Source: Aerococcus viridans
GTDB taxonomy: Bacteria > Bacillota > Bacilli > Lactobacillales > Aerococcaceae
Direction of reading: 5' to 3'
DNA length: 64,000 nt
NCBI RefSeq assembly: GCF_001543285.1
Contig: NZ_CP014164.1
Coordinates: forward strand, 62,001 to 126,000
The translations under genes were made by a program, and so were the position numbers. The notes beneath the pieces were generated by a model. It saw only the letters and a list, made by a program, of their open reading frames with translations, was not told the DNA's origin and did no database searches. The number at the start of each line of letters is the position of its first letter. The first letter of the stretch is position 1. Below are positions 5,812-63,610 of this stretch, one piece after another.

Positions 5812-6846
5812 TTAATCTTCATCAACGTCTACAATCCATCCTTCAGGTGCTTCTAATTCACCAAATTGGATACCCGTTAATTCTTTGTATAATTTTTGTG
5901 ATACTGGACCAACCTCAGTTTCTGAGAAGAATACGTGACGGTTGTCTTTGTATGTTACAGAACCAGCTGGAGAAATAACAGCCGCGTTACCCATAGCCCC
6001 TGCTTCAGAATATTTGTCAAAGTCATCTACTTTAATATCGCCCTCTTCAACTTCTAAGCCCAAACGATGTTCTGCTAACCATAACAATGATTTTTTAGTG
6101 ATTGAAGGTAATACTGTGTCTGATTTAGGTGTTACAAATTTGTTTGTATCTTTCTCGATAGCAAAGAAGTTTGCTGATGAGAATTCATCTACTTTAGTAT
6201 GTGTTGCTGGGTCTAAGTATAATACGTCATCGTAACCAGATTCTTGGATACGTTTAGCTGTTGCTAATGTTGATGCGTAGTTAGCTGTTGCTTTGATGTT
6301 ACCAGTACCATCAGCTGCTACACGGTCATGTTCGTGGTCGATGATGTAGTTATGTGGTGCTAACCCACCTTTGTATAAAGGACCAACTGGTGTTACGTAG
6401 ATTGTAAATAAGTATTCTTCAGCTGCTGATACTTGTACGTGGTCACCGATACCTAATAACATAGGACGGATGAACATTGCAGCACCGTTGTGGCCATATG
6501 GTGGCACATAGTCACGGTTAGCTTTAATAACTTCCTTACAAGCACGGACAAATTCTTCAACTGGTACTTCTGGCATCGCCATACGACGAGCACCACGGTT
6601 TAAACGTTCACCAAATTCATCTGGACGGAATAAAACGATCTTGCCATCTTTTGTACCATAAGCTTTATTACCTTCGAATACCCCTTGGCCGTAGTTGACG
6701 ATTGGAGCAGCTTCACGAATTGGTAATTGAGGATCTGTTTCTAATCCTGCTTTATACCATTCGCCATCTTTCCAGTATGCACGCCAGCGGTATGGTACTT
6801 CCGTATAAGAAAAATCTAATTCATCCCAGTTTAATTTGTCAGTCAT
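5812..6846 (-). CDS. ilvE: Branched-chain amino-acid aminotransferase
   Basis: A fold-type IV PLP enzyme of 344 residues that interconverts Leu, Ile and Val with their 2-oxo acids using glutamate/2-oxoglutarate. Motifs include YGQGVFEGNKAY near the N-terminus, the PLP-lysine region GTGNIKATANYAS, and the EFSSANFFA and EAGAMGNAAVISP segments around the cofactor. I place the start at MTDKLNW (6846) because GGAGTTGCTC lies just upstream; an in-frame ATG three codons earlier is possible. It is preceded by a leader peptide and terminator that couple expression to branched-chain aminoacyl-tRNA supply. A paralogue lies at 39156-40175. Confidence 0.93.
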   Translation of the reverse strand: MTDKLNWDELDFSYTEVPYRWRAYWKDGEWYKAGLETDPQLPIREAAPIVNYGQGVFEGNKAYGTKDGKIVLFRPDEFGERLNRGARRMAMPEVPVEEFVRACKEVIKANRDYVPPYGHNGAAMFIRPMLLGIGDHVQVSAAEEYLFTIYVTPVGPLYKGGLAPHNYIIDHEHDRVAADGTGNIKATANYASTLATAKRIQESGYDDVLYLDPATHTKVDEFSSANFFAIEKDTNKFVTPKSDTVLPSITKKSLLWLAEHRLGLEVEEGDIKVDDFDKYSEAGAMGNAAVISPAGSVTYKDNRHVFFSETEVGPVSQKLYKELTGIQFGELEAPEGWIVDVDED

Positions 6847-49057: not shown

Positions 49058-49869
49058 GGTTCTGTTGCAAAGTTTTAAATAAAGAATAAAATCCCTTACG
49101 GTATCTATGATTTAAGCTGGGATTCCCAATAATACCTTGATTTCAGTACAGACCGAAAACCCGAAGAGAGTGCCTTCTTTTCGGGTTTTCTTATATAATC
49201 CTCGAATGGCTTCCATGCCTTTAATCGTGGTAGAGGCAGTGCGTAAACTTCGATAGAATTTATTGCGTCTCTTTACTGGACGATGGTCTTGTTCAATCAA
49301 ATTATTCAGGTATTTAATAGTACGATGTTCTGTCCCTTGATAAAAGCCGCCGTATTCTTTTAGTTTCTTAAAGGCACTTGTAATAGAGGGGGCTTTATCT
49401 GTGACTACAACCTTCGGTTCATCAAACTGCTTCACTAACCGCTTAAGAAAAGCATAGGCTGCTTGTGTGTCCCGTTTTTTACGTAACCAAATATCCAAGG
49501 TTAAACCATCTGCATCGATGGCTCGATACAAATAATGCCATTTTCCTTTAATTTTGATGTACGTTTCATCCATTTTCCATGAATAAAAGGATTTTTTATT
49601 TTTCTTTTTCCAAATTTTATAGAGTAGTTTGCCATATTCTTGCACCCAACGATAAATCGTCGTATGAGAAACGTTAATGCCACGATCATATAAGATTTCT
49701 TGAACTTCACGATAGCTAAGGTTATAACGAAGATAGTAGCCCACGGCTACAATAATCACATCCTGCTGAAATTGCTTTCCTTTAAAATGATTCATCGTCA
49801 TTCCTCCTGCTATCTTTTTCTATTATTCTACCTTATTTGATAGTAGATTTAAAACTTTGCAACAGAACC
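49058..49869 (-). mobile_element. IS1216 (IS6 family), copy 1
   Basis: 812 bp with terminal GGTTCTGTTGCAAAGTTT and its inverted copy AAACTTTGCAACAGAACC. One transposase gene, on the minus strand. The flanking 8-mers (GGCCTTGC and GGTTTTTG) do not match each other, so no target duplication remains. Confidence 0.95.
49112..49795 (-). CDS. IS1216 transposase, copy 1
   Basis: 227 residues from MNHFKGKQFQQDVIIVAVGY (GGAGGA upstream); two codons earlier another ATG is in frame. DDE transposase of the IS6 family: N-terminal helix-turn-helix (SYREVQEILYDRGINVSHTT), then catalytic residues in WKMDETYIKIKG, VVTDKAPS and TIKYLNNLIEQDHR. Differs from copy 2 at only a few residues (for example LLYKIW versus LLYQIW). 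It moves by replicative cointegrate formation. Confidence 0.95.
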   Translation of the reverse strand: MNHFKGKQFQQDVIIVAVGYYLRYNLSYREVQEILYDRGINVSHTTIYRWVQEYGKLLYKIWKKKNKKSFYSWKMDETYIKIKGKWHYLYRAIDADGLTLDIWLRKKRDTQAAYAFLKRLVKQFDEPKVVVTDKAPSITSAFKKLKEYGGFYQGTEHRTIKYLNNLIEQDHRPVKRRNKFYRSLRTASTTIKGMEAIRGLYKKTRKEGTLFGFSVCTEIKVLLGIPA

Positions 49870-51146: not shown

Positions 51147-51196
51147 TGCTCATTTGTCTGCTTTACAGCAAAGCAGACAAATGAGCACTCTTTTTT
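51147..51196 (+). terminator. Terminator of the channel gene
   Basis: Arms AGAGTGCTCATTTGTCTGC and GCAGACAAATGAGCACTCT are perfectly complementary, followed by six T residues; IS1216 copy 2 begins directly after these. Confidence 0.95.
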
Positions 51197-52008
51197 GGTT
51201 CTGTTGCAAAGTTTTAAATAAAGAATAAAATCCCTTACGGTATCTATGATTTAAGCTGGGATTCCCAATAATACCTTGATTTCAGTACAGACCGAAAACC
51301 CGAAGAGAGTGCCTTCTTTTCGGGTTTTCTTATATAATCCTCGAATGGCTTCCATGCCTTTAATCGTGGTAGAGGCAGTGCGTAAACTTCGATAGAATTT
51401 ATTGCGTCTCTTTACTGGACGATGGTCTTGTTCAATCAAATTATTCAGGTATTTAATGGTACGATGTTCTGTCCCTTGATAAAAGCCGCCGTATTCTTTT
51501 AGTTTATTAAAGGCACTTGTAATGGAGGGGGCTTTATCTGTGACTACAACCTTCGGTTCATCAAACTGCTTCACTAACCGCTTAAGAAAAGCATAGGCTG
51601 CTTGTGTGTCCCGTTTTTTACGTAACCAAATATCCAAGGTTAAACCATCTGCATCGATGGCTCGATACAAATAATGCCATTTTCCTTTAATTTTGATGTA
51701 CGTTTCATCCATTTTCCATGAATAAAAGGATTTTTTATTTTTCTTTTTCCAAATTTGATAGAGTAGTTTGCCATATTCTTGCACCCAACGATAAATCGTC
51801 GTATGAGAAACGTTAATGCCACGATCATATAAGATTTCTTGAACTTCACGATAGCTAAGGTTATAACGAAGATAGTAGCCCACGGCTATAATAATCACAT
51901 CCTGCTGAAATTGCTTTCCTTTAAAATGATTCATCGTCATTCCTCCTGCTATCTTTTTCTATTATTCTACCTTATTTGATAGTAGATTTAAAACTTTGCA
52001 ACAGAACC
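51197..52008 (-). mobile_element. IS1216 (IS6 family), copy 2
   Basis: 812 bp with the same ends as copy 1 and the same orientation, 1.33 kb away. The flanks TCTTTTTT and GAATGTCT do not match. The pair and the DNA between them form an IS6-type pseudo-compound transposon / translocatable unit. Confidence 0.95.
51251..51934 (-). CDS. IS1216 transposase, copy 2
   Basis: 227 residues, nearly identical to copy 1, with Ile, Gln and Asn at the positions where copy 1 has Val, Lys and Lys. All DDE residues are present, so it should be active. Confidence 0.95.
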   Translation of the reverse strand: MNHFKGKQFQQDVIIIAVGYYLRYNLSYREVQEILYDRGINVSHTTIYRWVQEYGKLLYQIWKKKNKKSFYSWKMDETYIKIKGKWHYLYRAIDADGLTLDIWLRKKRDTQAAYAFLKRLVKQFDEPKVVVTDKAPSITSAFNKLKEYGGFYQGTEHRTIKYLNNLIEQDHRPVKRRNKFYRSLRTASTTIKGMEAIRGLYKKTRKEGTLFGFSVCTEIKVLLGIPA

Positions 52009-52806: not shown

Positions 52807-52867
52807 TGTGCTATCTCTTAATAATGAATGGAGTGACAATTGATAGCATTTGTGCTATCATATAAAT

Positions 52868-53227
52868 ATGGTTAACAAAAAAATTGAATTTGAATTTTTT
52901 GATGAAGAAGAGTTTAAAAAATTCTTAGATAAATTGCCCTCAAAAGATGCAATTAAAGTGATGTCTATGATTGATAATATTGAAATTAGAGGCATTCAAT
53001 CATCCATCAAAAACCAATGGGTTAAGAAATTGGATGATAACTTATTCGAAATTAGGTCGAAATCTAGTAATAATATACAACGTGGGATTTACTTCCATGT
53101 AAAGGATTCACGATATATTATTACCCACTTCTTCACTAAGAAAGATCAGAAAACGCCAAAACGTGAAATTGAACGTGGGAAAAATCGGCGTAAATTATAC
53201 TTTGTTAGGAGGAAATCAGATGAATAG
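52868..53227 (+). CDS. higB: HigB/RelE-superfamily toxin
   Basis: 119 residues from MVNKKIEFEFFDEEEFKKFL (ATG 52868). Compact RelE fold with the conserved core LFEIRSKSSNNIQRGIYFHV then YIITHFFTKKDQKTPKREIE of the phage-derived Gp49/HigB-like toxins, ending in basic residues. Such toxins cleave mRNA at the ribosome. Overlaps the antitoxin start by 8 bp, in the toxin-first order of higBA. Confidence 0.88.
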   Translation: MVNKKIEFEFFDEEEFKKFLDKLPSKDAIKVMSMIDNIEIRGIQSSIKNQWVKKLDDNLFEIRSKSSNNIQRGIYFHVKDSRYIITHFFTKKDQKTPKREIERGKNRRKLYFVRRKSDE

Positions 53228-53498
53228 AGTATTAGAAGAATATGCTGCAGAAAGAGAATTAAAAGAGCCAGGATTCGCTGAAGAATGGGAAAATGAAAAA
53301 GTACAGAATCGTATTGCAGATCAAATCTACAATATTCGCAAAAATCTAGGTTTAAGCCAACGTGAATTTGCTAAATTGGTTGGTAAACCGCAGTCCACTA
53401 TAGGTAGAATTGAATCTCGTGAAGTGAATGCTTCTTTGGATACTATTGTATCTATTGCAAATGCAACGAATAAAAAACTAATAGTTGAGTTAGTGTAG
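53220..53498 (+). CDS. higA: HigA-type XRE antitoxin
   Basis: 92 residues from MNRVLEEYAAERELKEPGFA (ATG 53220, AGGAGG upstream). The helix-turn-helix NLGLSQREFAKLVGKPQSTI then GRIESREVNASLDTIVSIAN binds DNA and, with HigB, represses the operon. Neutralises the adjacent toxin. Confidence 0.9.
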   Translation: MNRVLEEYAAERELKEPGFAEEWENEKVQNRIADQIYNIRKNLGLSQREFAKLVGKPQSTIGRIESREVNASLDTIVSIANATNKKLIVELV

Positions 53499-53735
53499 TT
53501 ACATCATTCATTCTAAATTTTTTTAGATTTTGAAAAAAGCACAAGAGTCCTTTGATATCCTGTGTTTTTTTTGCGTTTCCATACTTTCGTAGAGTTAATC
53601 TCATTTTAAAAAAAGTCAATTCAAATCCAGGCAACCTTTAGTTTGAATACTTGGGCGTTTCGATTGTAGGTTATTGTATTAACAAAGTAACACTAATGTG
53701 TTACAATGTTTTACATAAGAAAGGTGGTATATGAT

Positions 53736-54053
53736 ATGGAAAAAGCTCGTAAAACACGTACTTCACCTAAAAGAGTGACTAAAGGAAAAAGCAACAAATC
53801 TGAATCTTCTACAATTACCATAAGAGTGGATAAAGACCTTAAAGAAGAAGCTGCCGAATTATTTGAAGATTTAGGTATGAACACGTCTACAGCTATTAAT
53901 ACATTTTTAAGACAAAGTGTCCGTGAAAATAAAGTCCCATTTGAAATTAAAAGAAATATTGAAACTGAAAATGCCCTACGAGAAGTTAAAGAAGGTCATT
54001 TAGAAACCTTTGAAAATTTTGATGAATTTTGGGAAGATTTAAATGAAGATTAG
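53736..54053 (+). CDS. dinJ: RelB/DinJ-family antitoxin
   Basis: 105 residues from MEKARKTRTSPKRVTKGKSN (ATG 53736, AAAGGTGG upstream). The basic tail is followed by the ribbon-helix-helix TITIRVDKDLKEEAAELFED-LGMNTSTAINTFLRQ typical of DinJ, and a toxin-binding C-terminus. Overlaps the toxin gene by 11 bp. The N-terminal 28 basic residues are longer than usual for DinJ. Confidence 0.9.
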   Translation: MEKARKTRTSPKRVTKGKSNKSESSTITIRVDKDLKEEAAELFEDLGMNTSTAINTFLRQSVRENKVPFEIKRNIETENALREVKEGHLETFENFDEFWEDLNED

Positions 54054-54318
54054 TAGGACTTCAAATTTCAAACGGGATTACAAAAAGTTTAAGAAAAAAC
54101 ACTATGATATGGATAAGCTTGCTCAAGTTATCAAACTCATTATCAATGGTGAAAAAGAAACTTTGCGTACACAATACCATGACCATATGTTAAAAGGTCA
54201 ATATGCTGGTTTTCGTGAATTACATATTGAGAAAGACTGGTTGCTGGTCTATAAAGTAGATAACGATCAATTGATCCTGACTTTAATTAGAACTGGCACG
54301 CATGATGATTTATTCTAA
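54043..54318 (+). CDS. yafQ: YafQ-family mRNA interferase toxin
   Basis: 91 residues. MKISRTSNFKRDYKKFKKKH, then LKGQYAGFRELHIEKDWLLV and LILTLIRTGTHDDLF: the GxRExHIxxDWLLxY and RTGTHSxLF motifs with catalytic His residues are those of YafQ. A ribosome-dependent endoribonuclease. Second complete toxin-antitoxin pair within 1.5 kb. Confidence 0.93.
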   Translation: MKISRTSNFKRDYKKFKKKHYDMDKLAQVIKLIINGEKETLRTQYHDHMLKGQYAGFRELHIEKDWLLVYKVDNDQLILTLIRTGTHDDLF

Positions 54319-54484: not shown

Positions 54485-55004
54485 TCAATGTGGTACGCCT
54501 TTTTGGTTTGCATGTATGTAATACTCATCAATTTCCAAACCAACAATACTTAACCCATTGATATCTTCAACAGATTTCTTCAAAGTCTTTACGTGTGCAT
54601 GTCTCAAGTCGTTTTCAGTTACACCACTATCCCCTAGTGCTTGAGCGAAATTTTCGTAATCGTCATAATTTGATGCAGTAATTACTAACGGAAAATTATT
54701 TGATTGAAAGTGCTTGATTCTGGTGTTCTTGTTCTTTTTGGTAAAAAAATTATCAATATTGCCGTCTACTTTCTTATGTTCGCCACGTTCTATATATTTT
54801 TGATTTCTCTTCTCGATCATCTGATTCTGCTTAGCTTGTAATTCTGTGTACGCAGTTTTGTTCAAAATTACATGTTCATGAATTTGAAAGCTATATTTGT
54901 TTTTGGTCTCTGATTGCTGAATCTTGAGAGTCTAATTCGTAATGGCTTTTAGACAAACCTCCGTAGCTCATACCTTCCCCAATATGTGCATTTGCTGTGG
55001 TCAT
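54485..55004 (-). pseudogene. Plasmid relaxase, N-terminal remnant
   Basis: From ATG 55004 the minus strand reads MTTANAHIGEGMSYGGLSKS then HYELDSQDSAIRDQ; a frameshift follows, then NKYSFQIHEHVILNKTAYTE and on to DEYYIHANQKGVPH, where it meets a stop. The spaced His near the end (IHANQKGVPH) resembles the HUH metal motif of relaxases, and the preceding segment fits a mobilisation protein. The C-terminal part of the same kind of gene lies at 52009-52611, with the toxin-antitoxin segment between them. Confidence 0.55.
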
Positions 55005-55057
55005 TTTATCAGCCCCTAGGTGTATTTAAATTCAATATAGCACACCAATTTTTCTAA

Positions 55058-55076
55058 CTTGTCCTAATAGGACAAG
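55058..55076. other. Inverted repeat upstream of the relaxase start (possible oriT element)
   Basis: CTTGTCC and GGACAAG flank TAATA, 54 bp upstream of the relaxase ATG. oriT regions of mobilisable plasmids sit in this position and carry such repeats. The nic site was not recognised. Confidence 0.4.
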
Positions 55077-55300
55077 AGGCTTGTAGGTTTGGCAAATTCT
55101 ATGTTTACTAGCCACTTCGTGCCGCAAACGACCTTGTTGGGGAACACTCTGCCCCACTAATACCCTTGATAAACCCGTTCAAAACGCAGCCGTTTTGAGC
55201 AAAAAAAGAGACCTGAAATGTGGCCGTTTCGGTCTCATTTTTAGGCAAGATCAATCAGTTTTTTCGTCGTTTGTGTCGAACAAAGTAGAGCTCGCTAAAC
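55077..55300. other. Non-coding plasmid-type leader region with hairpins
   Basis: No gene. Contains CAAAACG-CAGC-CGTTTTG (about 55182-55199), GAGACC/GGTCTC (about 55211-55238), a GGGG-rich hairpin near 55135-55155, and CCCTTGATA at 55163-55171 (TATCAAGGG on the minus strand), the element also found next to the repeat arrays. Confidence 0.45.
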
Positions 55301-55306
55301 AAAAAA

Positions 55307-55345
55307 GATAGAAAAGCACATTTTTTAAAGTGCTTTTCTATCTTT
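55307..55345 (-). terminator. Terminator of the third toxin-antitoxin operon
   Basis: GATAGAAAAGCAC (55307-55319) pairs with GTGCTTTTCTATC (55330-55342); the minus-strand reading ends in TTTTTT. Confidence 0.88.
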
Positions 55346-55390
55346 CATAATAAGCTATTCTAATCTGTATATATATCGCTGCCAAGATAA

Positions 55391-55705
55391 TTATCCTTTT
55401 GCGGAAGCATATTCGATTTCTTCAACCATTTCAGGATTTTGTTCGATTAATTGTAGTAATCTTCTAGCACTACCGTTTGGATGTGATTTTCCAGTTTCCC
55501 AAGCTTCAACCGTTCTAACCGATACTACTAAAAGATCGGAAAAAACTTTTTGTGTCATTTGTGTTTTGTTACGGACTGTTTTGACAGCCGATGGATTGTA
55601 TTCCGGTAGATTATTTAATGTGTACTTTCTAACCATAACTTTATTTGGTTTGTTATGAGTGAACTTTATTAATTCACTCATACTGTCTTTTAGTGTATCA
55701 CGCAT
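55391..55705 (-). CDS. XRE-family antitoxin (HigA/NadS-like)
   Basis: 104 residues. The C-terminal helix-turn-helix VRNKTQMTQKVFSDLLVVSV then RTVEAWETGKSHPNGSARRL is the NadS/HigA pattern with EAWExGKxxPxGxAxRLL. It starts just after the toxin stop (toxin-first order). It remains open although its toxin gene is frameshifted. Confidence 0.85.
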   Translation of the reverse strand: MRDTLKDSMSELIKFTHNKPNKVMVRKYTLNNLPEYNPSAVKTVRNKTQMTQKVFSDLLVVSVRTVEAWETGKSHPNGSARRLLQLIEQNPEMVEEIEYASAKG

Positions 55706-55706
55706 A

Positions 55707-56004
55707 TTAATTAGCCCCTATTTTTAACTTTTTTTTAAAATCAGTGATAAATTGTTTGATTTCTTTTTTGTCTTTATCTGTCAAAGACTCTTTTTCACTT
55801 TTAGGGTATACATCTAAAAAGGCATAAATAGCTTCCATCGCAATGAAATAAATGATTCGATAAGAACCGCTTTTGCCTTTTTTTTGAAGACTCTGGATTA
55901 AATCTTAACTTTATTGCGCCACCCGTTTTTTGAATCATATCTCCTAAATATACTGCAAGGCAAGACATTTGGTAATTGAAGAATAACAAGCAAAAAAATA
56001 GCAA
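55707..56004 (-). pseudogene. RelE/HigB-type toxin with a single-base frameshift
   Basis: Read on the minus strand: YLGDMIQKTGGAIKLRFNPE-SS in one frame, then after an A8 tract (55876-55883) KGKSGSYRIIYFIAMEAIYA then FLDVYPKSEKESLTDKDKKE in the next. One extra A in an A7 run explains the shift: seven would give SSKKGKSGSYRIIY, the standard core of RelE-type toxins partnered with NadS-like antitoxins. The N-terminal end near 56000 is also unclear. It could be real inactivation, slippage or a sequencing error. Confidence 0.7.
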
Positions 56005-56240
56005 TTAGGTCTTTTGACAAAGTATAGTTGCTATTCTTTTTTTAGGCCCTACTTTAATGAAATTTTTGTTTGGAGGGAATGACTTCATTCCTTTAATTAT
56101 TTCAGTTGAATTTAATAGAGAAGCCTAGCGTCTATTAAGAAATGATTTTCTTGATGAGCGTCAATTTTTTTTGAGGTAGGGACCCTTATACTAAAATGGG
56201 TATTCGGACGGAGGGAAGATTTCTCTATTTTTTGGTATAC
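56005..56240. other. Non-coding gap before the repeat arrays
   Basis: AT-rich, no credible gene or clear structure seen in these 236 bp. Confidence 0.5.
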
Positions 56241-56247
56241 ACCAAAG

Positions 56248-56351
56248 GACGAAAAAAATTAATGCAATTCGTTTAATACACAGTTTTTTCTCGTCTTATC
56301 CACGTATAAACACAGTATTTTCTCGTCATTTAATCGCTGTATCCCTTGATA
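56248..56351 (-). repeat. Repeat array A: direct-direct-inverted module, core GACGAG/GACGAA
   Basis: On the minus strand two direct cores GACGAGAAAA start at 56327 and 56295 (32 bp apart), and the inverted copy is the plus-strand GACGAA at 56248. TATCAAGGG (minus, 56351-56343) lies directly before it. TTATCCACG at 56296-56304 is one base from a DnaA box. Same layout as the other arrays but with one extra helical turn. Confidence 0.65.
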
Positions 56352-56489
56352 TCATTGGGTTTATTTTTATCCAAAAGGTATAAAAGATAAAGTATTTACG
56401 ATATATATAAAAGGTTCATTATTTCACTAAAAAATTTAATATATGATACGTAAATTTCTCGTGATTTCTCAATATACAAAGTGTCTTCC

Positions 56490-57142
56490 TTGACGACAAA
56501 TCTGAAATTTGTCGTTGTAGTTTATCATTATTGACGACAAAAGTGGGCATCATTGACGACAAAACTGAAATTTGTCGTTGTAGTTTATCATCATTGACGA
56601 CAAAAGTGGGCATCATTGACGACAAAACTGAAATTTGTCGTTGTAGTTTATCATCATTGACGACAAAAGTGGGCATCATTAACGACAAAAGTTGGTGTTG
56701 ATAACGACAAAAGTTTAAAGTTGTCGTTATTTAAAAGGAGATTTCTTATTTATTGCTGCATATCAAAAGTGGGCATCATCAGCAACAGAAATGGGTGTCG
56801 TTAGCAACAATTTATGGATTTGTTGCTATAAAAAGAGATTATCAGCAACAAAAGTGGGTACTAACAACGACAAAAGTTGGTGTTGATAACGACAAAAGTT
56901 TAAAGTTGTCGTTATTTAAAAGGATATTTCTTACTTATTGCTGCATATAACGACAAAAGTGGGCGTTAATGACGATTTTTTTATTTTCTTTCGTCATTTA
57001 CATTCTAATGATGAAAGAAATTGGCACTCAAAACGAATATATTTATATTTTTCGTCTTAACAAAGGGAATGACGAAAAATAATGGTGGTATTAACGAATT
57101 TTTACATATATTTTCGTCCTTATTGGGTTAGATGACGAAAAT
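56490..57142 (+). repeat. Repeat array B: modules with cores GACGAC, AGCAAC, AACGAC, GACGAA
   Basis: Direct cores start at 56533/56555, 56596/56618, 56659/56681/56703, 56781/56803, 56844/56866/56888, 56949/56971, 57010/57032 and 57071/57093, always 22 bp apart. Each set is followed by an inverted copy (56571, 56634, 56720, 56819, 56905, 56988, 57048, 57111). The first two sets belong to a 63-bp tandem repeat. A segment of about 186 bp ending in TTATTGCTGCATAT is duplicated. The base triplet TGG or GGG recurs 12-15 bases into the first copy. Confidence 0.85.
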
Positions 57143-57289
57143 ATTCGGTGACATAAAGCAAGATTTATAGCCACTACTTGTTGAAAGTATTTGTTTCACT
57201 CTGATCAGGTCAATGAACGATATATATATGTTAATTTAATAATATATATATTTATATTTAAAGACTTTACGCAATTCAAAAGACTTATG
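57143..57289. other. AT-rich spacer between arrays B and C
   Basis: No gene. It contains TTTACGCAA (57266-57274), related to a longer element at 57679-57699 and, inverted, at 59866-59888, and TA-rich tracts that could melt easily. Confidence 0.4.
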
Positions 57290-57491
57290 TATCAAGGGTT
57301 TTGCACGTTAAAAAACCACATTTTACGGAGCTAAAAACCACATTTTACGTAATCAATCACCACAATAACTTAAATAAGTGGTTTTTGTGTTTATTACAAC
57401 ATTTTACGTAGTGAAAACCACATTTTACCACTTTTGTTAAAGCTGTTTTGAAATTATTTATTTATAACCACTTTTTTTACCTATTGTGGTT
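57290..57491 (+). repeat. Repeat array C: core AACCACATTTTACG
   Basis: TATCAAGGG (57290-57298) leads in. Direct cores start at 57314 and 57336 (22 bp apart), with inverted GTGGTT at 57378-57383. A second, looser set has CATTTTAC at 57400 and 57421 (21 bp) and inverted GTGGTT at 57486-57491. Confidence 0.75.
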
Positions 57492-57568
57492 TATTTAAAG
57501 TCGCCCCTTGAGAAAACCGTGTAATTCATTACATGGATGAATCAAGTTCTAGGGCGACTTTAAATAAA
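57490..57568. repeat. Large hairpin with 17-bp perfect arms
   Basis: Arms TTTATTTAAAGTCGCCC (57490-57506) and GGGCGACTTTAAATAAA (57552-57568). The 45-base centre holds smaller repeats (GTAAT/ATTAC). Could be a recombination, partition or single-strand structure. Confidence 0.65.
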
Positions 57569-57738
57569 GGTGATCAATAAACTATTAAAGGTTTGAATTA
57601 CCAATTTACGTTTGATTTGTTTAACGGTGAATTAGTAACTTAACCTTCTTTCTATTCGTTAAATAATGTTTAATTTAAAGATTTAAGTACTTTGCGTAAA
57701 AATAAAGCTTGATATAACAGGGGGTTTGCCATTTGCAT
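57569..57738. other. Leader of array D
   Basis: No gene. TTAAGTACTTTGCGTAAAAA (57681-57700) followed by TATAACAGGGGGTTTG corresponds to the lead-in of the inverted array E on the far side of IS256 (59866-59888 and 59822-59852), with clear similarity. Confidence 0.5.
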
Positions 57739-58330
57739 GACCAATAGAATGGCAGTTTGAAACCAGTAAATTTTAGATTTTGGTTTCAGACAGGATTTGA
57801 AACCAGTAAAATGGCAATTTGAAACCAGTAAATTTTAGATTTTGGTTTCAGACAGGATTTGAAACCAGTAAAATGGCAATTTGAAACCACTAATTTATAA
57901 AAATTGGTTTTAAACAGATTTGAAACCAATAAAATGGCAATTTGAAACCAGTAAATTTTAGATTTTGGTTTCAAATAGGATTTGAAACCAGTAAAATGGC
58001 AATTTGAAACCACTAATTTATAAAAATTGGTTTTAAACAGATTTGAAACCAATAAAATGGCAGTTTGAAACCAGTAAATTTTAGATTTTGGTTTCTAACA
58101 ATATTTGAAACAAATAAAATGGCAATTTGAAACAAGTATTTTTAAATTATTTGCTTCAAAATGAATTTGAAACAAATAAAATGGCAATTTAAAACAAGTA
58201 TTTTTAAATTATTTGCTTCAAAATGAATTTGAAACAAATAAAATGGCAATTTGAAACAAGTATTTTTAAATTATTTGCTTCATAGTAAATTTGAAACAAA
58301 TAAAATGGCAATTTAAAACATGTTTTTTTA
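57739..58330 (+). repeat. Repeat array D: cores GAAACCA then GAAACAA
   Basis: Ten modules of about 61-63 bp. Direct cores at 57799/57821, 57861/57883, 57922/57944, 57984/58006, 58045/58067 (GAAACCA, inverted TGGTTTC or TTGGTTT), then 58107/58129, 58169/58191, 58231/58253, 58293/58315 (GAAACAA, inverted TTGCTTC); the first module (second core 57759) has a degenerate first core. Spacing is 22 bp each time, with ATGGCA in the first copy. The last module is split by IS256 and its inverted core reappears at 59669. Confidence 0.9.
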
Positions 58331-59654
58331 GATAAAGTCCGTATAATTGTGTAAAAGTAAAAAGGCCATATAACAGTCCTTTTACGGTACAATGTTTTTA
58401 ACGACAAAAACATACCCAGGAGGACTTTTACATGACCCAAGTACATTTTACACTGAAAAGCGAAGAGATTCAAAGCATTATTGAATATTCTGTAAAGGAT
58501 GACGTTTCTAAAAATATTTTAACAACGGTATTTAATCAACTAATGGAAAATCAACGAACAGAATATATTCAAGCAAAAGAATATGAACGAACAGAAAACC
58601 GACAAAGTCAACGAAATGGCTATTATGAGCGCAGCTTTACGACACGTGTAGGCACGCTAGAATTAAAAGTACCCAGAACACGTGATGGTCATTTTTTACC
58701 CACAGTGTTTGAACGTTATCAACGAAACGAAAAAGCCCTCATGGCTTCAATGTTGGAAATGTATGTATCAGGCGTTTCAACTCGTAAAGTATCAAAAATT
58801 GTGGAAGAACTTTGTGGTAAATCCGTCTCTAAGTCCTTCGTTTCTAGCTTAACAGAACAGCTAGAACCTATGGTTAACGAGTGGCAGAATCGTTTATTAT
58901 CAGAAAAAAATTATCCTTACTTAATGACCGATGTACTCTATATAAAAGTACGAGAAGAAAATCGAGTACTCTCAAAAAGCTGTCATATAGCGATTGGAAT
59001 AACCAAAGATGGCGACCGTGAAATTATCGGCTTCATGATTCAAAGTGGCGAAAGCGAAGAGACCTGGACAACATTTTTTGAATACCTAAAAGAACGCGGT
59101 TTACAAGGTACGGAACTCGTTATTTCTGATGCGCACAAAGGATTAGTCTCTGCCATTAGAAAATCCTTCACCAACGTAAGTTGGCAAAGATGCCAAGTTC
59201 ACTTCCTAAGAAATATCTTTACCACCATTCCTAAAAAAAATTCAAAATCTTTCAGAGAAGCTGTTAAAGGAATTTTTAAGTTCACAGATATTAACTTAGC
59301 GCGTGAGGCTAAAAATCGATTGATTCATGATTATATCGATCAACCAAAATATTCAAAAGCTTGCGCATCATTGGATGATGGATTCGAAGACGCCTTTCAA
59401 TATACCGTACAAGGAAATTCCCACAATCGACTAAAGAGTACCAATCTAATTGAACGACTGAATCAAGAAGTACGCAGAAGAGAAAAGATTATTCGCATCT
59501 TCCCCAATCAAACATCAGCCAATCGCTTAATTGGAGCCGTTCTTATGGACCTGCATGATGAATGGATTTATTCTTCAAGAAAATACATCAATTTTGATAA
59601 GTAAAAATGGTAAAAACATTGTATAGCATTTTACACAGGAGTCTGGACTTGACT
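58331..59654 (+). mobile_element. IS256
   Basis: 1324 bp, the exact length of IS256. The left end GATAAAGTCCGTATAATTG and the right end TTTTACACAGGAGTCTGGAC are its imperfect 26-bp terminal repeats. An 8-bp target duplication TTTTTTTA flanks it (58323-58330 and 59655-59662), so the insertion is recent and unrearranged. It splits the last module of array D. Confidence 0.95.
58432..59604 (+). CDS. IS256 transposase
   Basis: 390 residues, the known length, beginning MTQVHFTLKSEEIQSIIEYS. DDE/mutator-type transposase: YPYLMTDVLYIKVREENRV (first Asp), VISDAHKGLVSAI (second Asp), and STNLIERLNQEVRRREKIIR (Glu). The sequence looks essentially identical to the enterococcal/staphylococcal IS256 protein as I remember it. 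It moves by copy-out circles. AGGAGG before the ATG. Confidence 0.97.
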   Translation: MTQVHFTLKSEEIQSIIEYSVKDDVSKNILTTVFNQLMENQRTEYIQAKEYERTENRQSQRNGYYERSFTTRVGTLELKVPRTRDGHFLPTVFERYQRNEKALMASMLEMYVSGVSTRKVSKIVEELCGKSVSKSFVSSLTEQLEPMVNEWQNRLLSEKNYPYLMTDVLYIKVREENRVLSKSCHIAIGITKDGDREIIGFMIQSGESEETWTTFFEYLKERGLQGTELVISDAHKGLVSAIRKSFTNVSWQRCQVHFLRNIFTTIPKKNSKSFREAVKGIFKFTDINLAREAKNRLIHDYIDQPKYSKACASLDDGFEDAFQYTVQGNSHNRLKSTNLIERLNQEVRRREKIIRIFPNQTSANRLIGAVLMDLHDEWIYSSRKYINFDK

Positions 59655-59662
59655 TTTTTTTA

Positions 59663-59806
59663 AAATAGTTGCTTTAAAAATTTCCAATCATTATATCGTT
59701 ATAAGTACCAACTTTTGTCGTTATAACTATGCTAAAATATCAAACCTCCGCCCCTTATAACGACAACACCCACAATCAGTCGTTATAAGTGCCAACTTTT
59801 GTCGTT
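59663..59806 (-). repeat. Repeat array E: inverted modules, core AACGAC
   Basis: The end of the split array D module (TTGCTTT, 59669-59675) is followed by modules on the minus strand. Direct cores end at 59806 and 59784 (22 bp), with the inverted AACGAC at 59759-59764; a second set has GTCGTT at 59717-59722 and ATCGTT at 59695-59700 (22 bp). The core equals one of array B but the direction is opposite. Confidence 0.75.
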
Positions 59807-59995
59807 GCTAGCTGCCATTTTAGGTGTTCCTAAAACCCCTTTGACATTGATATACTAACCTCAATTTTTACGCAAATTACTTAACCTTTAAATCTATATA
59901 ATATTAATTTATATAGACAACTTATTTAAATTATGTCTGTATGTCTTAATGAATTATAGAAATCAACAATTAAAGTGATGATCTTAAGACGGAGT
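59807..59995. other. Leader of array E and gap before the unknown genes
   Basis: No gene. Minus strand: TTAAGTAATTTGCGTAAAAA (about 59886-59867), then TATCAATGTCAAAGGGG leading into array E. Very AT-rich beyond that. Confidence 0.45.
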
Positions 59996-60883
59996 ATAAC
60001 GGAGAACCGTTGAACTTCTATGTGACTTCTATGAACTCATTGAAGTTAGCTTCAGGTGAAACAATTGAAGTAACAAGTGAAGAGATTATCGCAGCACAAG
60101 CAGAGAATGGTACGTTAAAATTAAGCGGCGAACAAGTAAGTGAGCGTGCAGAAGATGCATACTCAAACACCGCAAACGAAGATACTAACGGAGAACCTTC
60201 GACAGGAACCAACCTAGCACCTACTGGTTCAATTGTAGTTAATGGGGTTGAAGTACCCATTAGCTTAGATATGCTAGTGACTAGATTAAATCCTTCAGCG
60301 GACAACGTATCGTGATGTAACAATTGATTCAACCTTAGCTGAAATTTATGATGTGACGTTTGGTGCGATTGACCGTTCAGCAATCATGACGAACAAAGAG
60401 AATGCGGTAGCACAGTTGGAAGCTGCTAAAGAATCTATGGAAGAATATCATGAACGATTGAATGATGACCCTAACATAAGTGATGACGATGCGAAGAAAA
60501 TTATTGAAGCAGACAACATCGCTTTAAACTCAATCGGTGACGGTGAAACAAATAAACAAATTGAAAAGCTATTAAGCGAAACAAGCATTTCAAGTTCAGA
60601 CTCAAGCGGTACAGTTGAAGAAACAAAACCAATTGAAGAGATGACTGCTGAAGAACGTGAAGCCGCATTGCTTGCTGAAGTCAACGAAGAGTCACTAGGT
60701 ATTACGCAAGATACTTCAACAGTCGTTGCTTTAGAAAGTTTACGTGCATCAATCATCGACTTGAATTATCAAATTGCATTGTATGATGTAGAGTTAGATT
60801 ATATTGACGAAGTTTCAATCAAACAAGATAGCATTGGTCGTGAAGCTGTTAGATATAATTTGTTAAGTCCATTCGATATTTAA
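59996..60883 (+). pseudogene. Unknown plasmid/phage-type protein, frameshifted
   Basis: One gene in two frames. The first frame (to TGA 60315) reads LNFYVTSMNSLKLASGETIE ... GSIVVNGVEVPISLDMLVTR-LNPSADN. The second continues TYRDVTIDSTLAEIYDVTFG and runs to 60883 with a long acidic helical section. A one-base shift near 60302 links them. No start codon with a ribosome site is visible upstream (an in-frame stop lies at about 59968), so the 5' end may also be missing. Not recognised; codon use is less AT-rich than the surroundings. Confidence 0.6.
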
Positions 60884-60903
60884 TTTAAAAGGAGCGTATA
60901 ATC

Positions 60904-61296
60904 ATGGCAAGAAAAATAGAACCATTACAAAAACGTTGGGCAAGTTTAGCAACTACTTTAAAGGATAGTAAGAACGATTTAGATTTCGGTAAGATCGATG
61001 TTCAGCTCACTGCTTCAGAACAAGAACCATTAAACGAGTTAGCAACGTCAATTAAAGAGATGGCAAAAGAGATGCGAGAGATTGCTAATCAACTTGATAA
61101 AGAGTTTGACCACTACGTTAATTCTAAACGTAACGATGCGATTGATTCTGCGATGTCAGATAGCGAAGTACGTGAGTTAGTTTTAGCAATGGCTTTAGAA
61201 AAAGGTCTAGTGAAAACGTTAGATCTTTCTTCAGAAGTTGAAGTGGAGAACGAAGAACCAGTCGCAAATAATTCAGAACAACGTCAGGCAATTTAA
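60904..61296 (+). CDS. Unknown helical acidic protein
   Basis: 130 residues, MARKIEPLQKRWASLATTLK then DSKNDLDFGKIDVQLTASEQ, with a predicted coiled coil (about 40-85, EPLNELATSIKEMAKEMREI) and an acidic, disordered tail. AAAGGAGCG precedes the ATG; the gene is 20 bp after the frameshifted gene and a terminator follows, so the two form an operon. No family recognised; a structural or replication-accessory protein of a plasmid or phage is plausible. Confidence 0.65.
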   Translation: MARKIEPLQKRWASLATTLKDSKNDLDFGKIDVQLTASEQEPLNELATSIKEMAKEMREIANQLDKEFDHYVNSKRNDAIDSAMSDSEVRELVLAMALEKGLVKTLDLSSEVEVENEEPVANNSEQRQAI

Positions 61297-61327
61297 TCAG
61301 TAAAGAGAAATTCATATAATGTTTTTG

Positions 61328-61363
61328 ATACCAGATGGTCGATGACTGTCTGGTATTTTTTTG
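61328..61363 (+). terminator. Terminator after the unknown gene pair
   Basis: ATACCAGA pairs with TCTGGTAT around a 13-base loop, followed by TTTTTTT. Confidence 0.88.
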
Positions 61364-61504
61364 TTTGTTATCGTGAAGGGCAGGGTGGGATGATAGCAAG
61401 TTCAAGCGGATGTTATCGTGACACCATGCCAATTTTTCTTGTACCTCATCTAGTTCATTACCTTCGGTTACGCCAAAATTATTTCTAGCGACTCGTCAAA
61501 AAAA

Positions 61505-61980
61505 TGCCTTCTGGATTTTAAAATGATAGGCTAAGCTTCATCATTTTTTTCGTCCTCAATCTTAAAAGGGTTAGGCTAGGTTTCGTCGAAAAATTTTCTT
61601 TTTATATCAGAAGCTTTGCCAAAGATTTGTAAAAAAAATTTTGTATTCATACCAAAAGCTTAGCCAAGGTTTTGAAAAAAATCTTGCATTCACTCCAAAA
61701 AGGTAGCTAAGGCTTCATCAAAAAAACTTTTGATTAATCCAAAAAAGGTCAGCAAGCCTTCACCATTATTTTTGTTCTCAATCCAAAAGAAGGGGGCAAG
61801 ATTTCTTGTTCTCAATCCGAAAAGTCGATCAAGGCTTCGTCATTTTTATTTGTTCTCAATCGAAAAAAGGTGGTAGAGGATTCTTCTATTCAATCCAAAG
61901 GGTAGGCTAGCCTTTAACCAAATTTCTTCAAAAAATTTTCAAAGGCATGGCTAGGCTTTTTCAAAAATCTACCTAACCAA
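61505..61980. repeat. Degenerate tandem repeat of about 43 bp
   Basis: About eleven divergent copies of a unit like CAATCCAAAAAGGTAGGCTA followed by AGGCTTCGTCA, an A/T tract and TTTGTTCT. Copies start near 61512, 61556, 61607, 61650, 61695, 61738, 61779, 61817, 61859 and 61893. No coding frame is kept. Possibly a plasmid partition (centromere-like) or origin-linked repeat. Confidence 0.55.
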
Positions 61981-62026
61981 AGTATAAGCCCTAAAGGAAA
62001 AAGGCACTTTTTCACAAACTTTTTGT

Positions 62027-62224
62027 TGTTACAAGTCGCTCCAAAAGCCTATGAAATCAAGGTTTAACCTGTAACAAGAACTTGCAAAAAGTGGTTCATT
62101 GGTGTAACAACTTGTAACAAGCTTGTTACAAGTTTATAAGTCCCAAAAAGCAAGTGAAAATAAGGGTTTTACACACTTCCGTTTTAACTGTTGTTACAAG
62201 CTTGATACAACTTGTAACAAGAAA
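62027..62224. repeat. Repeat group F: core TTGTAACAA
   Basis: Direct GTAACA at 62071, 62104 and 62114 with inverted TGTTAC at 62125-62130; further TGTTAC at 62027 and 62192 and GTAACA at 62214. ATCAAGGTTTAACCTG (62057-62072) leads in, resembling the TATCAAGGG leaders. The first two direct cores are 33 bp apart with AAGTGG between them. Confidence 0.6.
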
Positions 62225-62396
62225 ATGATAAAAATGCACCATTTTCCCTTATGCTCTTCCACCACTTTTCACCATTCACAAAGTATGCCTAGCTTACCTA
62301 GTAAAGCCTAGCAAGGTCAAACTGGATAGGTTACACTGAGTTGGACAGAAAAGATAAGGTGTGTATACTAAAAGAAACACACTGGAGGAATCTATC

Positions 62397-62662
<266 letters not shown>

Positions 62663-62690
<28 letters not shown>

Positions 62691-63610
62691 TCAAAGCAAA
62701 CAAACATAAGTATTCTATATCAGCGATGTGCCGTGCCCTCAAAATTAACAGAGGATCTTATTATTATGAAGCCAAAAAGAAAGAAAGTGAATCAGAACTC
62801 GAACAAGCAATCATTGAAGAATTCGCAAGAAGTAATAATGCGTTCGGCACGCGGAAATTGAAACCTGTACTTGAAAAGAGAGGTTTTACTGTCTCTCGCC
62901 GTCGTATCGGTCGTATAATGAAAAAATTCCATCTCGTCTCAAAATATAACCGGCCGTCTTACAAACCCCAGAGAACCGGTGTTAATCAAGCTAGAATCGA
63001 AAACATCCTGAACCGTGAGTTCTCACAAGAAGAGCCGATGAAAGTGATCGTCACGGATTTGACTTACGTCAAAGTAGCTACTAAGTGGTTTTATGTATGT
63101 TTTATCCTTGATTTATTTAATCGTGAAATCATTGGTTATTCCGCTGGACCGCATAAGACCGCTGACTTAGTCATGCAGGCCCTGGCGACAGTTAAGGGCG
63201 ATCTACATATGGTGAACACTTTTCATACCGATCGAGGAAAAGAATTTGATAACCATACGATCGATGAATTATTGGATACCTTTGACATTGAACGCTCGTT
63301 AAGTAGAAAAGGAAATCCGTATGACAATGCCGTAGCGGAATCGACATATAAATCGTTTAAGTTTGAATTTGTCTACGACAATCGATTCGATACACTCTAT
63401 GAACTGCAGGTCCAACTTATGGACTACGTCCATTGGTGGAATAATTTCCGTCCGCATGGCGCACTAAACTACGAATCTCCCATAGACTATCGTAAAACTT
63501 GGGAAGAAGAACAGTCTGAAAATGGAAGAGATAAGTCATTCGTCTATCGGTCGGCCACTGAGTCAAAACAGTATGAGGCCAGGACGGAAAGGGTGGTCTT
63601 GCCCTTGTAG
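62663..63610 (+). CDS. IS3-family transposase OrfB
   Basis: The frame opens at about 62663 (DIRAKVEVIKANKHKYSISA) and has a first Met at 62726. DDE integrase core: IVTDLTYVKVATKWFYVCFI (Asp), FHTDRGKEFDNHTIDELL (Asp) and NPYDNAVAESTYKSFKFEFV (Glu). No separate ribosome site, so translation by frameshift from OrfA is expected, as known for the family. Catalytic residues are intact. Confidence 0.88.

Follow-up and report, generated by a model that had tools for sequence, protein, structure and literature searches.

Theta-replicating plasmids whose initiator belongs to the Rep_3/RepB family (PF01051) have origins of a well-described form. In the lactococcal representatives, as the passages drawn on here describe them, an AT-rich region is followed by a 22-bp sequence present in three and a half copies (the iterons), and an inverted repeat mostly overlaps the last half-iteron, with the iterons and/or the inverted repeat suggested as the determinants of specificity (PMC3138775); a comparable layout is given for origins of the pUCL287 family, in which iterons and inverted repeat vary between plasmids (PMC7117683). 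Such a replicon uses one core sequence, and its rep gene lies directly behind the origin. Here we analyze a locus of Aerococcus viridans that is built from the same elements, an AT-rich element, 22-bp iterons and a half-iteron overlapping an inverted repeat, but in which at least eight core types stand together, with tandem amplification and with no rep gene. The locus lies inside a 64-kb window (the whole stretch of DNA that was analyzed, 64,000 nucleotides) of a single-contig genome of 2,199,877 bases (NZ_CP014164.1, positions 62001-126000), and the window is chromosomal, since gyrA, dnaB and purA-like open reading frames (ORFs) are present in it (by eye). The names of genes in the window for which no family is cited, and all names of cores, were assigned by eye.

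The control iterons of plasmid P1 are named incA. As stated in the parts of the papers used here, incompatibility is determined in P1 by the iterons that flank repA (PMC10999674), and the extra-origin iterons of Vibrio cholerae ori2-inc are negative elements for replication (PMC6090056). The likeness to the present locus is in sites of the initiator-binding type (here by sequence form) that extend beyond a minimal origin; however, the sites of P1 and ori2-inc serve a single initiator of their own, whereas here many specificities are present with no own initiator. Another precedent is SGI1, an island that depends on an IncC helper plasmid for replication and destabilizes this helper, according to the sections cited (PMC7433901), but SGI1 encodes its own Rep, activated by the helper's activator, while the array described here encodes none. 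A survey of Acinetobacter baumannii plasmids lists 161 of 813 without an identifiable initiator gene, a likeness as far as the lack of a recognizable initiator is concerned, and the portion of the survey considered here mentions no multi-iteron array (PMC11702686). No description of a many-specificity, rep-less array was found in the open-access literature searched. A sequence-only reading of this stretch had called the layout undescribed, which holds, within that literature, for the array as a whole but not for its module, described for the lactococcal plasmids in the passages already cited (PMC3138775). What is unusual is the combination: at least eight cores, several origin-like units (one of them firm, two or three weaker), modules amplified in tandem, and a genome with no Rep_3 gene.

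The repeat module and Rep_3 origins

The sequence-only reading had reported, for positions 56248..59806, modules made of two direct cores at a constant 22-bp step, followed by an inverted core. This form was searched for with a detector requiring a direct core, a second direct core at an exact step and an inverted core (8-nt cores, at most one mismatch each, both strands, an inserted transposon removed). At step 22 it returned 29 matches in the array, versus 0-2 at each of the other steps from 15 to 32, the 29 matches not being equal to 29 separate modules, because one inverted core can serve two modules in tandem arrays. Among 100 first-order Markov resamples of the region, none exceeded 2 matches at step 22 (mean 0.2), and the first 56 kb of the window gave 4, no excess over the other steps (0-4). 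With exact 7-mers, 10 clusters on the plus strand and 7 on the minus strand were detected at step 22, all within the array region, with none at the other steps from 14 to 32 and a single one at step 33, outside the region. The module form and its constant step are thus real, and so are the two exceptions that had been pointed out, a 32-bp step (18-nt copies at 56278 and 56310, in array A) and one 21-bp step (~57397/57418, by eye), the latter in array F as named here. The span itself needs correction: it does hold the array, but it also holds an inserted transposon of the IS256/Mutator family, which had been missed.

The 22-bp step had been linked to Rep_3 iterons, and this link is borne out by control origins. 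A search for Rep_3 (PF01051) in 295 Lactobacillales genomes gave matches in 63, and 30 loci were used as controls. By the threshold of the script, 27 of these 30 have iterons, 23 at 22 bp and 4 at 21 bp, and three have none; in many of them a half-iteron, an inverted core and a promoter-like stretch come after the last iteron. A version of the detector with a wider loop than that used on the window, and with self-palindromic cores excluded, matched 20 of 29 Pfam-selected Rep_3 upstream regions at step 22 and 0-4 of 29 at each of the other steps from 15 to 30; the corresponding 24 of 30 for pattern-selected loci is biased, as these were chosen by the 22-bp pattern. In either control set, a few of the step-22 matches fall on sequence other than the iteron core. 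When the palindrome filter was omitted, step 22 was matched in 49 of the 62 loci of the mixed set, versus 0-9 for the other steps, but the split count is preferred, and the control loci include near-duplicates (for example L021, L022, L072 and L114). These controls, together with the published layout, identify 'direct-direct-inverted' as a Rep_3 origin/operator module. Judged by its sequence, the module is therefore an ordinary building block of Rep_3 (lactococcal/pUCL287-type theta) origins, already known.

As to the locus as a whole, it contains at least two direct iterons of 21-22 bp and a half-iteron overlapping an inverted repeat, and an AT-rich element is present in one unit (unit A, E 1.3e-6), with weak signals in two others (F and G) and none in a fourth (C'). 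A PF01051 rep gene behind the origin is lacking. The sequence-only reading had noted the absence of an initiator gene between the cores, correctly, and this absence extends to the whole 2.2-Mb genome, in which no Rep_3 match was found. As there is no PF01051 match either in this genome or in one of the plasmids carrying the array (L001, below), the locus is classed as a set of rep-less origin units and not as a Rep_3 replicon.

Origin-like units and core types

To locate origin-like units, the AT-rich flanks of real Rep_3 origins (n=27) were made into a profile, which was applied to the window and the plasmids as well as to some small loci and to 40 resamples. The three best matches in the window are at 56414-56343 (minus strand, E 1.3e-6), 57683-57722 (plus strand, E 0.35) and 57229-57298 (plus strand, E 0.49), and these sit just upstream of arrays A, G and F, respectively, only that of A being significant; the next match in the window has E 1.5, and the best resample E 1.9. 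Unit A is firmly an origin-type unit by its sequence, whereas F and G are weak candidates for origin-like units, by profile rank and position.

Array A (56249..56420, minus strand; AT-rich profile, aligned copies, blastn) is by its form an origin unit of the lactococcal/pUCL287 type, almost complete but lacking rep, which had not been recognized from the sequence alone. In minus-strand order, it consists of the AT-rich element (56414-56343), a ATCAAGGGATACAGCGATTAAA motif, two GACGAG iterons with the 32-bp step, a half-iteron with an inverted core (the operator) and the apparent start of a rep leader, with no rep. Six copies of unit A are present (one in the window, two in L001, three in pT4302, the second plasmid described below), along with a partial one in the Aerococcus genome G014. 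All six retain the AT-rich element and the motif, and five of the six end in a common rep-less end. None of the copies has a rep behind it, the sole Rep_3 match on these molecules being at 13.9-14.4 kb of pT4302. By blastn, array A matches Enterococcus and Lactococcus origins with weak E-values, among 84 records of which many are chance matches, for example inside MFS transporter genes. The three matching records examined all have 22-bp iterons of the ACACAGTTTTTTC type, and in two of them a RepB is annotated. Array A is, by eye, closest to the controls L027 and L028, and over 97% of its length the Rep of L027 shares 99.7% identity with a protein of a Carnobacterium viridans plasmid.

Array F (57229..57490, plus strand) is origin-like by layout, with an AT-rich element (57229-57298), a TATCAAGGG motif, three AACCAC cores at the 22-bp step and an inverted GTGGTT, followed by the 21-bp pair and a second inverted repeat; its profile match is weak, and the direct-direct-inverted detector is silent on it. 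Arrays G and H (57660..58319, plus strand) consist of an AT-rich element, also with a weak profile match, and about nine tandem 62-bp modules, recognized as tandem repeats, with the core GAAACCA from 57740 to ~58095, the core GAAACAA from ~58100 to 58319, and the second half TAAAATGGCAAT. Array C' (59655..59930, minus strand), with two sets of AACGACA modules and an AT-rich stretch, is origin-like by eye, the profile being silent; it is 97% identical to its counterpart in L001 over 331 aligned positions.

The remaining arrays, all on the plus strand, are modules only. Array B (56490..56692; detector, repeat search) is a tandem series of 63-bp modules with the core GACGACA and the second half AAAGTGGGCATC; two copies of the array C module, core AACGACA, are located at 56678..56735 and 56863..56920 (detector); the array D module between them (56776..56835; detector) has the core AGCAACA, common to the rep-linked loci L021, L046, L072 and L114; and array E (56960..57145; by eye, the detector being silent) has GACGAAA/GATGAAA and AACGAAT cores at the 22-bp step and TTTCGTC inverted cores. 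At least six core types had been reported side by side; by eye, we now count at least eight: A (GACGAG), B (GACGACA), C (AACGACA), D (AGCAACA), E (GACGAAA/AACGAA), F (AACCAC), G (GAAACCA) and H (GAAACAA). The candidate of a single protein binding all the modules was rejected, since the cores are too different.

Some of these cores are shared with rep-linked replicons. Genome contigs and viral contigs were searched for the B/C/D core as RNCRACAAA in three copies at the 22-bp step, giving at least 186 loci; among the matches listed, a Rep_3-like ORF (by our own profile) is present in 31 and absent from 155, and for 29 of the 31 the distance from the iterons to an end of this ORF is at most 212 bp. 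The hosts include Lactococcus, Vagococcus, Psychrobacter, Acinetobacter, Persephonella, Thermosipho and a Cytophagales metagenome-assembled genome, among others. The 22-bp step of these loci is no evidence in itself, because they were chosen by the 22-bp pattern. For the G/H core, three exact GAAACMA iterons at the 22-bp step were found in no replicon of 395 Lactobacillales genomes. In viral contigs, three copies of GAAACMA were found at 20 loci and three copies of AACCACA at 2 loci, while TAAAATGGCAATTTGAAAC and the A-type iteron pair were each found at none. An H-type module is matched by four Enterococcus faecium plasmid records. As a side observation, a lone H-type module lies beside a small-ORF/AAGGGTTAACACCC region both in L001 (21600-21710) and in the E. 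faecium plasmid L004 (360-450), with a counterpart in pT4302 (L002 ~6600-6690), near par genes.

The plasmid cassette and its possible roles

The array is carried by two plasmids of Aerococcus urinaeequi, L001 (NZ_CP114064, 37.5 kb) and pT4302 (NZ_CP063066, 51.8 kb), with 84% identity in the best joined plasmid places, which cover 43% and 28% of a query of 2.1 kb. In both, the array adjoins a pair of genes, for 287-aa and 130-aa proteins, and further repeat families; no other plasmid records matching the gene pair were found. A second Aerococcus chromosome (G016) has C', a four-anchor array of class G-J and the G flank, with the array piece ~90 bp from an IS6-family element that is 99.4% identical to that in the window. 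Copies of this element in the window are located at 49058-49869 and 51195-52008, and another ~12.3 kb beyond the window end (L259 12321-13132); the other copies, with two in L268 (3093-3904 and 6253-7064) included, are 99.0-99.5% identical to the window copy at 49058. Homology to pT4302 extends ~2.2 kb beyond the window end, and this, along with the IS6-family copies, makes the chromosomal piece resemble a plasmid fragment flanked by insertion sequences (IS). The locus, whose plasmid nature had been overlooked from the window alone, belongs to a cassette of an Aerococcus plasmid family and is a piece of it left stranded; at least two chromosomes carry the cassette, next to an IS6-family element. 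As to wider distribution, the query 56250-57490 of the window has matches in 2 of 76 genomes (five candidates scored per genome), and the L001 array has matches in 6 of 15 genomes of the genus, which in the genome analyzed here, G016 and G014 only go beyond a 70-bp dispersed repeat.

These records also bear on whether a single iteron set was multiplied by misassembly, as tandem repeats misassemble readily. The order of the array is kept in independent records from other strains, and the copies differ by many substitutions. With copies of the cassette in both A. urinaeequi plasmids and a shortened one in a second Aerococcus chromosome, assembly error is excluded for practical purposes, although the exact repeat numbers are as assembled and remain uncertain.

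In L001, Rep_3, Rep_trans and Rep_OBD are absent by search, and no rep is annotated; the searches for RepA_N and Rep_1 were also negative, but they say little, because their control genomes were equally silent. L001 encodes ParA along with a DUF5388-like protein (24.3 bits, below the cut-off of 26.1), and short repeats lie upstream of parA (by eye). The candidate of the array being the centromere of this plasmid ParA system was rejected, as the system has short repeats of its own beside parA. The one Rep_3 gene of pT4302 is recorded as split by a frameshift and comes with ordinary iterons, whose core is a different one; L001 is devoid of the ~8-kb stretch of pT4302 (~6.7-14.7 kb) that contains this rep. 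Compared to known incompatibility or titration loci, extra sites of the initiator-binding type are present, by sequence form, but a cognate initiator in the same replicon is absent from our genome and from L001, and in pT4302 the core differs.

We consider it somewhat probable, from the sequence features above, that on plasmids the cassette works with Rep proteins in trans, through helper-dependent replication and/or through titration. Each core type would be read by the Rep of one incompatibility group, with Rep monomers bound to the 22-bp iterons and a dimer to the half-iteron and the inverted core. The complete units (A, and perhaps F, G and C') would allow the carrier to fire an origin with a borrowed Rep, while the amplified arrays would titrate or handcuff the same Reps, thus exerting pressure on related plasmids (incompatibility). 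A stronger version of this proposal, possible but less probable, would be that the cassette gathers Rep_3 origins without rep, and operators, from many incompatibility groups; any initiator supplied by a co-resident plasmid would then replicate the carrier and be titrated against its owner. The carrier would in effect be a satellite replicon with several potential helpers, and it would diversify in place along with the divergence of initiator specificities. Should the units indeed act in trans, the locus would amount to replication piracy between plasmids from DNA sites alone, with several specificities together, and it would bear on the persistence of plasmids with no recognizable rep gene and on the divergence of iteron specificity.

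The main rival of action in trans is a neutral origin: the units would be origins of a mosaic plasmid whose rep genes were lost and whose copies were multiplied by slippage or recombination, now neutral in the chromosome as well as on plasmids. This is possible, though in our view doubtful. It would fit the state of the chromosomal copy, broken by two IS elements next to a frameshifted gene, as well as the free variation in array length, the AATGGCA anchors numbering 10 in the window, 11 in L001, 13 in pT4302 and 4 in G016, and it would fit the loss of iterons from unit F in L001 and from two unit A copies in pT4302. Even if neutral, the array would preserve the initiator specificities that one plasmid lineage has had in the past. 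What argues against neutrality is, first, that the whole unit A is present in two copies in L001 and three in pT4302, five of the six copies known having the same rep-less end, and that L001 has no other recognized initiator. Second, module form has been kept while the cores changed. Of the class G-J anchors, 30 of 34 retain the 22-bp step and the direct-direct-inverted form within the mismatch limits (4 were dropped); the second half (TAAAATGGC) is constant, and the core changes jointly in direct and inverted copies. The last three letters of the second direct core and the first three of the inverted core combine as CCA-TGG in 8 modules, CAA-TTG in 8 and CAT-GTG (an imperfect complement) in 12, with 2 others, making matched pairs in 28 of the 30 modules kept, with two exceptions. 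Natural Rep_3 plasmids, as represented by the control loci, likewise vary in core.

When inverted cores were shuffled among the 21 unique modules of class G-J, the observed pairing was reached in 0 of 10,000 trials, a figure that overstates independence, as the modules are related by duplication, and this is one of several points that weigh against the cassette working in trans. In class B-E, among 32 anchors with similar direct cores, the inverted core differs from the second direct core by at most 1 of 8 positions in 16, by 2 in 9 and by 3-4 in 7, and neighboring core types are sometimes mixed in one module. Two of the three unit A copies of pT4302 are single-iteron, one of them without the common end; the L001 copy of unit F retains few of its iterons; and the AT-rich profile finds no match in C', with only weak scores for F and G. 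As pT4302 has a Rep_3 of its own, it can do without the cassette as an origin, provided that this gene works, and, given the equally silent controls for RepA_N and Rep_1, L001 may have an initiator of these types or of an unrecognized kind. To these are added the lack of G/H-core replicons among the 395 Lactobacillales genomes and the fact that amplification of tandem repeats can arise and persist without function.

A narrower alternative within the same frame is that the array was selected, on plasmids or in the chromosome, solely as a decoy or weapon, an incompatibility library that titrates or handcuffs the Reps of competitors; we regard this as unlikely. Many specificities are adjacent and modules are present in high copy, and iterons outside origins are known negative elements, in the accounts cited in part above (PMC6090056, PMC10999674). 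However, an AT-rich element would be superfluous in a pure decoy, and all six copies of unit A have retained theirs; no competitor replicon with G/H cores was seen in the 395 genomes; and the array is rare in the family as sampled, with the 2 of 76 and 6 of 15 genomes given above. Borrowing and/or titration, taken together, are rated somewhat above a relic, whereas borrowing and pure titration are not separable from one another.

As to the chromosomal copy, two IS insertions and the frameshift in the neighboring gene point to a stranded passenger, and it is probably idle unless a plasmid enters, because the genome has no Rep_3 gene.

The gene pair and the surroundings of the array

The companion gene pair (60010..61296, plus strand) adjoins C' in the window, with ORFs at 60010-60315 and 60353-60883 for the first gene, which is frameshifted here, and at 60904-61296 for the second. 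The products are acidic proteins of ~287 and 130 aa, with isoelectric points of 4.05 and 4.62, versus 6.5-9.4 (median 8.9) for the 30 control Reps, and both are predicted to be all-helical, with low confidence (mean pLDDT 67 and 61, the larger protein being folded as a C-terminal piece only). Between the plasmid copies, the values for nonsynonymous and synonymous divergence (dN/dS) are 0.017/0.060 and 0.010/0.094, dN being below dS. Searches against Pfam, PHROGs, NCBIfam and PADLOC returned weak matches only, and those with a curated cut-off were all below it; a scan of genome contigs for the 287-aa protein returned 94 pattern stretches and no relative. That the pair may be a new initiator or partition system, with the array as its binding region, would agree with its location beside the array on the two plasmids as well as in the window, with dN below dS, and with the lack of a known initiator in L001, but we consider it very improbable: the proteins are strongly acidic and predicted helical while Reps are mostly basic, one pair would need to read eight cores, L001 has its ParA and DUF5388-like protein with short repeats of their own, and G016 keeps pieces of the array with no match to the 130-aa protein.

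Each half of the array searched is single-copy in the genome. The array is split by the IS256/Mutator-family insertion (~58335..59655, plus strand), with a transposase ORF at 58432-59604 (PF00872, E 1.2e-165); plasmid homology breaks at both its ends, and comparison with the plasmids identifies 59655-59930 as the continuation of the array, the insertion not being part of it. A second, IS3-like element (62361-63610), with rve and HTH domains, interrupts the cassette in the window. DnaA boxes number 9 in the window, versus 10.75 expected, with 0 in the array itself and 2 in the inserted IS element. One stretch of the right flank had no match to phage records. Rfam gave 0 matches over 55000-62400, and a transcribed hairpin array was rejected as a candidate on this account and since units are in both orientations.

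Between the IS6-family copies and the array, genes of the toxin-antitoxin type are located at 52850-54318 and 55391-55705, the set being Gp49-like plus HTH, RelB/YafQ and an MqsA-like antitoxin. Within the array, at 57497-57566, lies an inverted-repeat element of ~70 bp (AAGTCGCCCC...GGGCGACTTT), a small dispersed palindrome with at least 17 further places in the same genome, by the search with the L001 array (20 of 69 candidates scored), and present also in four other Aerococcus genomes (G009, G010, G014 and G018). Beyond the gene pair, repeat families travel with the cassette (window 61589-61896; L001 8350-9760; L002 25470-25900), with units of 43-45 bp and 78 bp, to which L001 adds copies of TTGATACAA, both direct and inverted.

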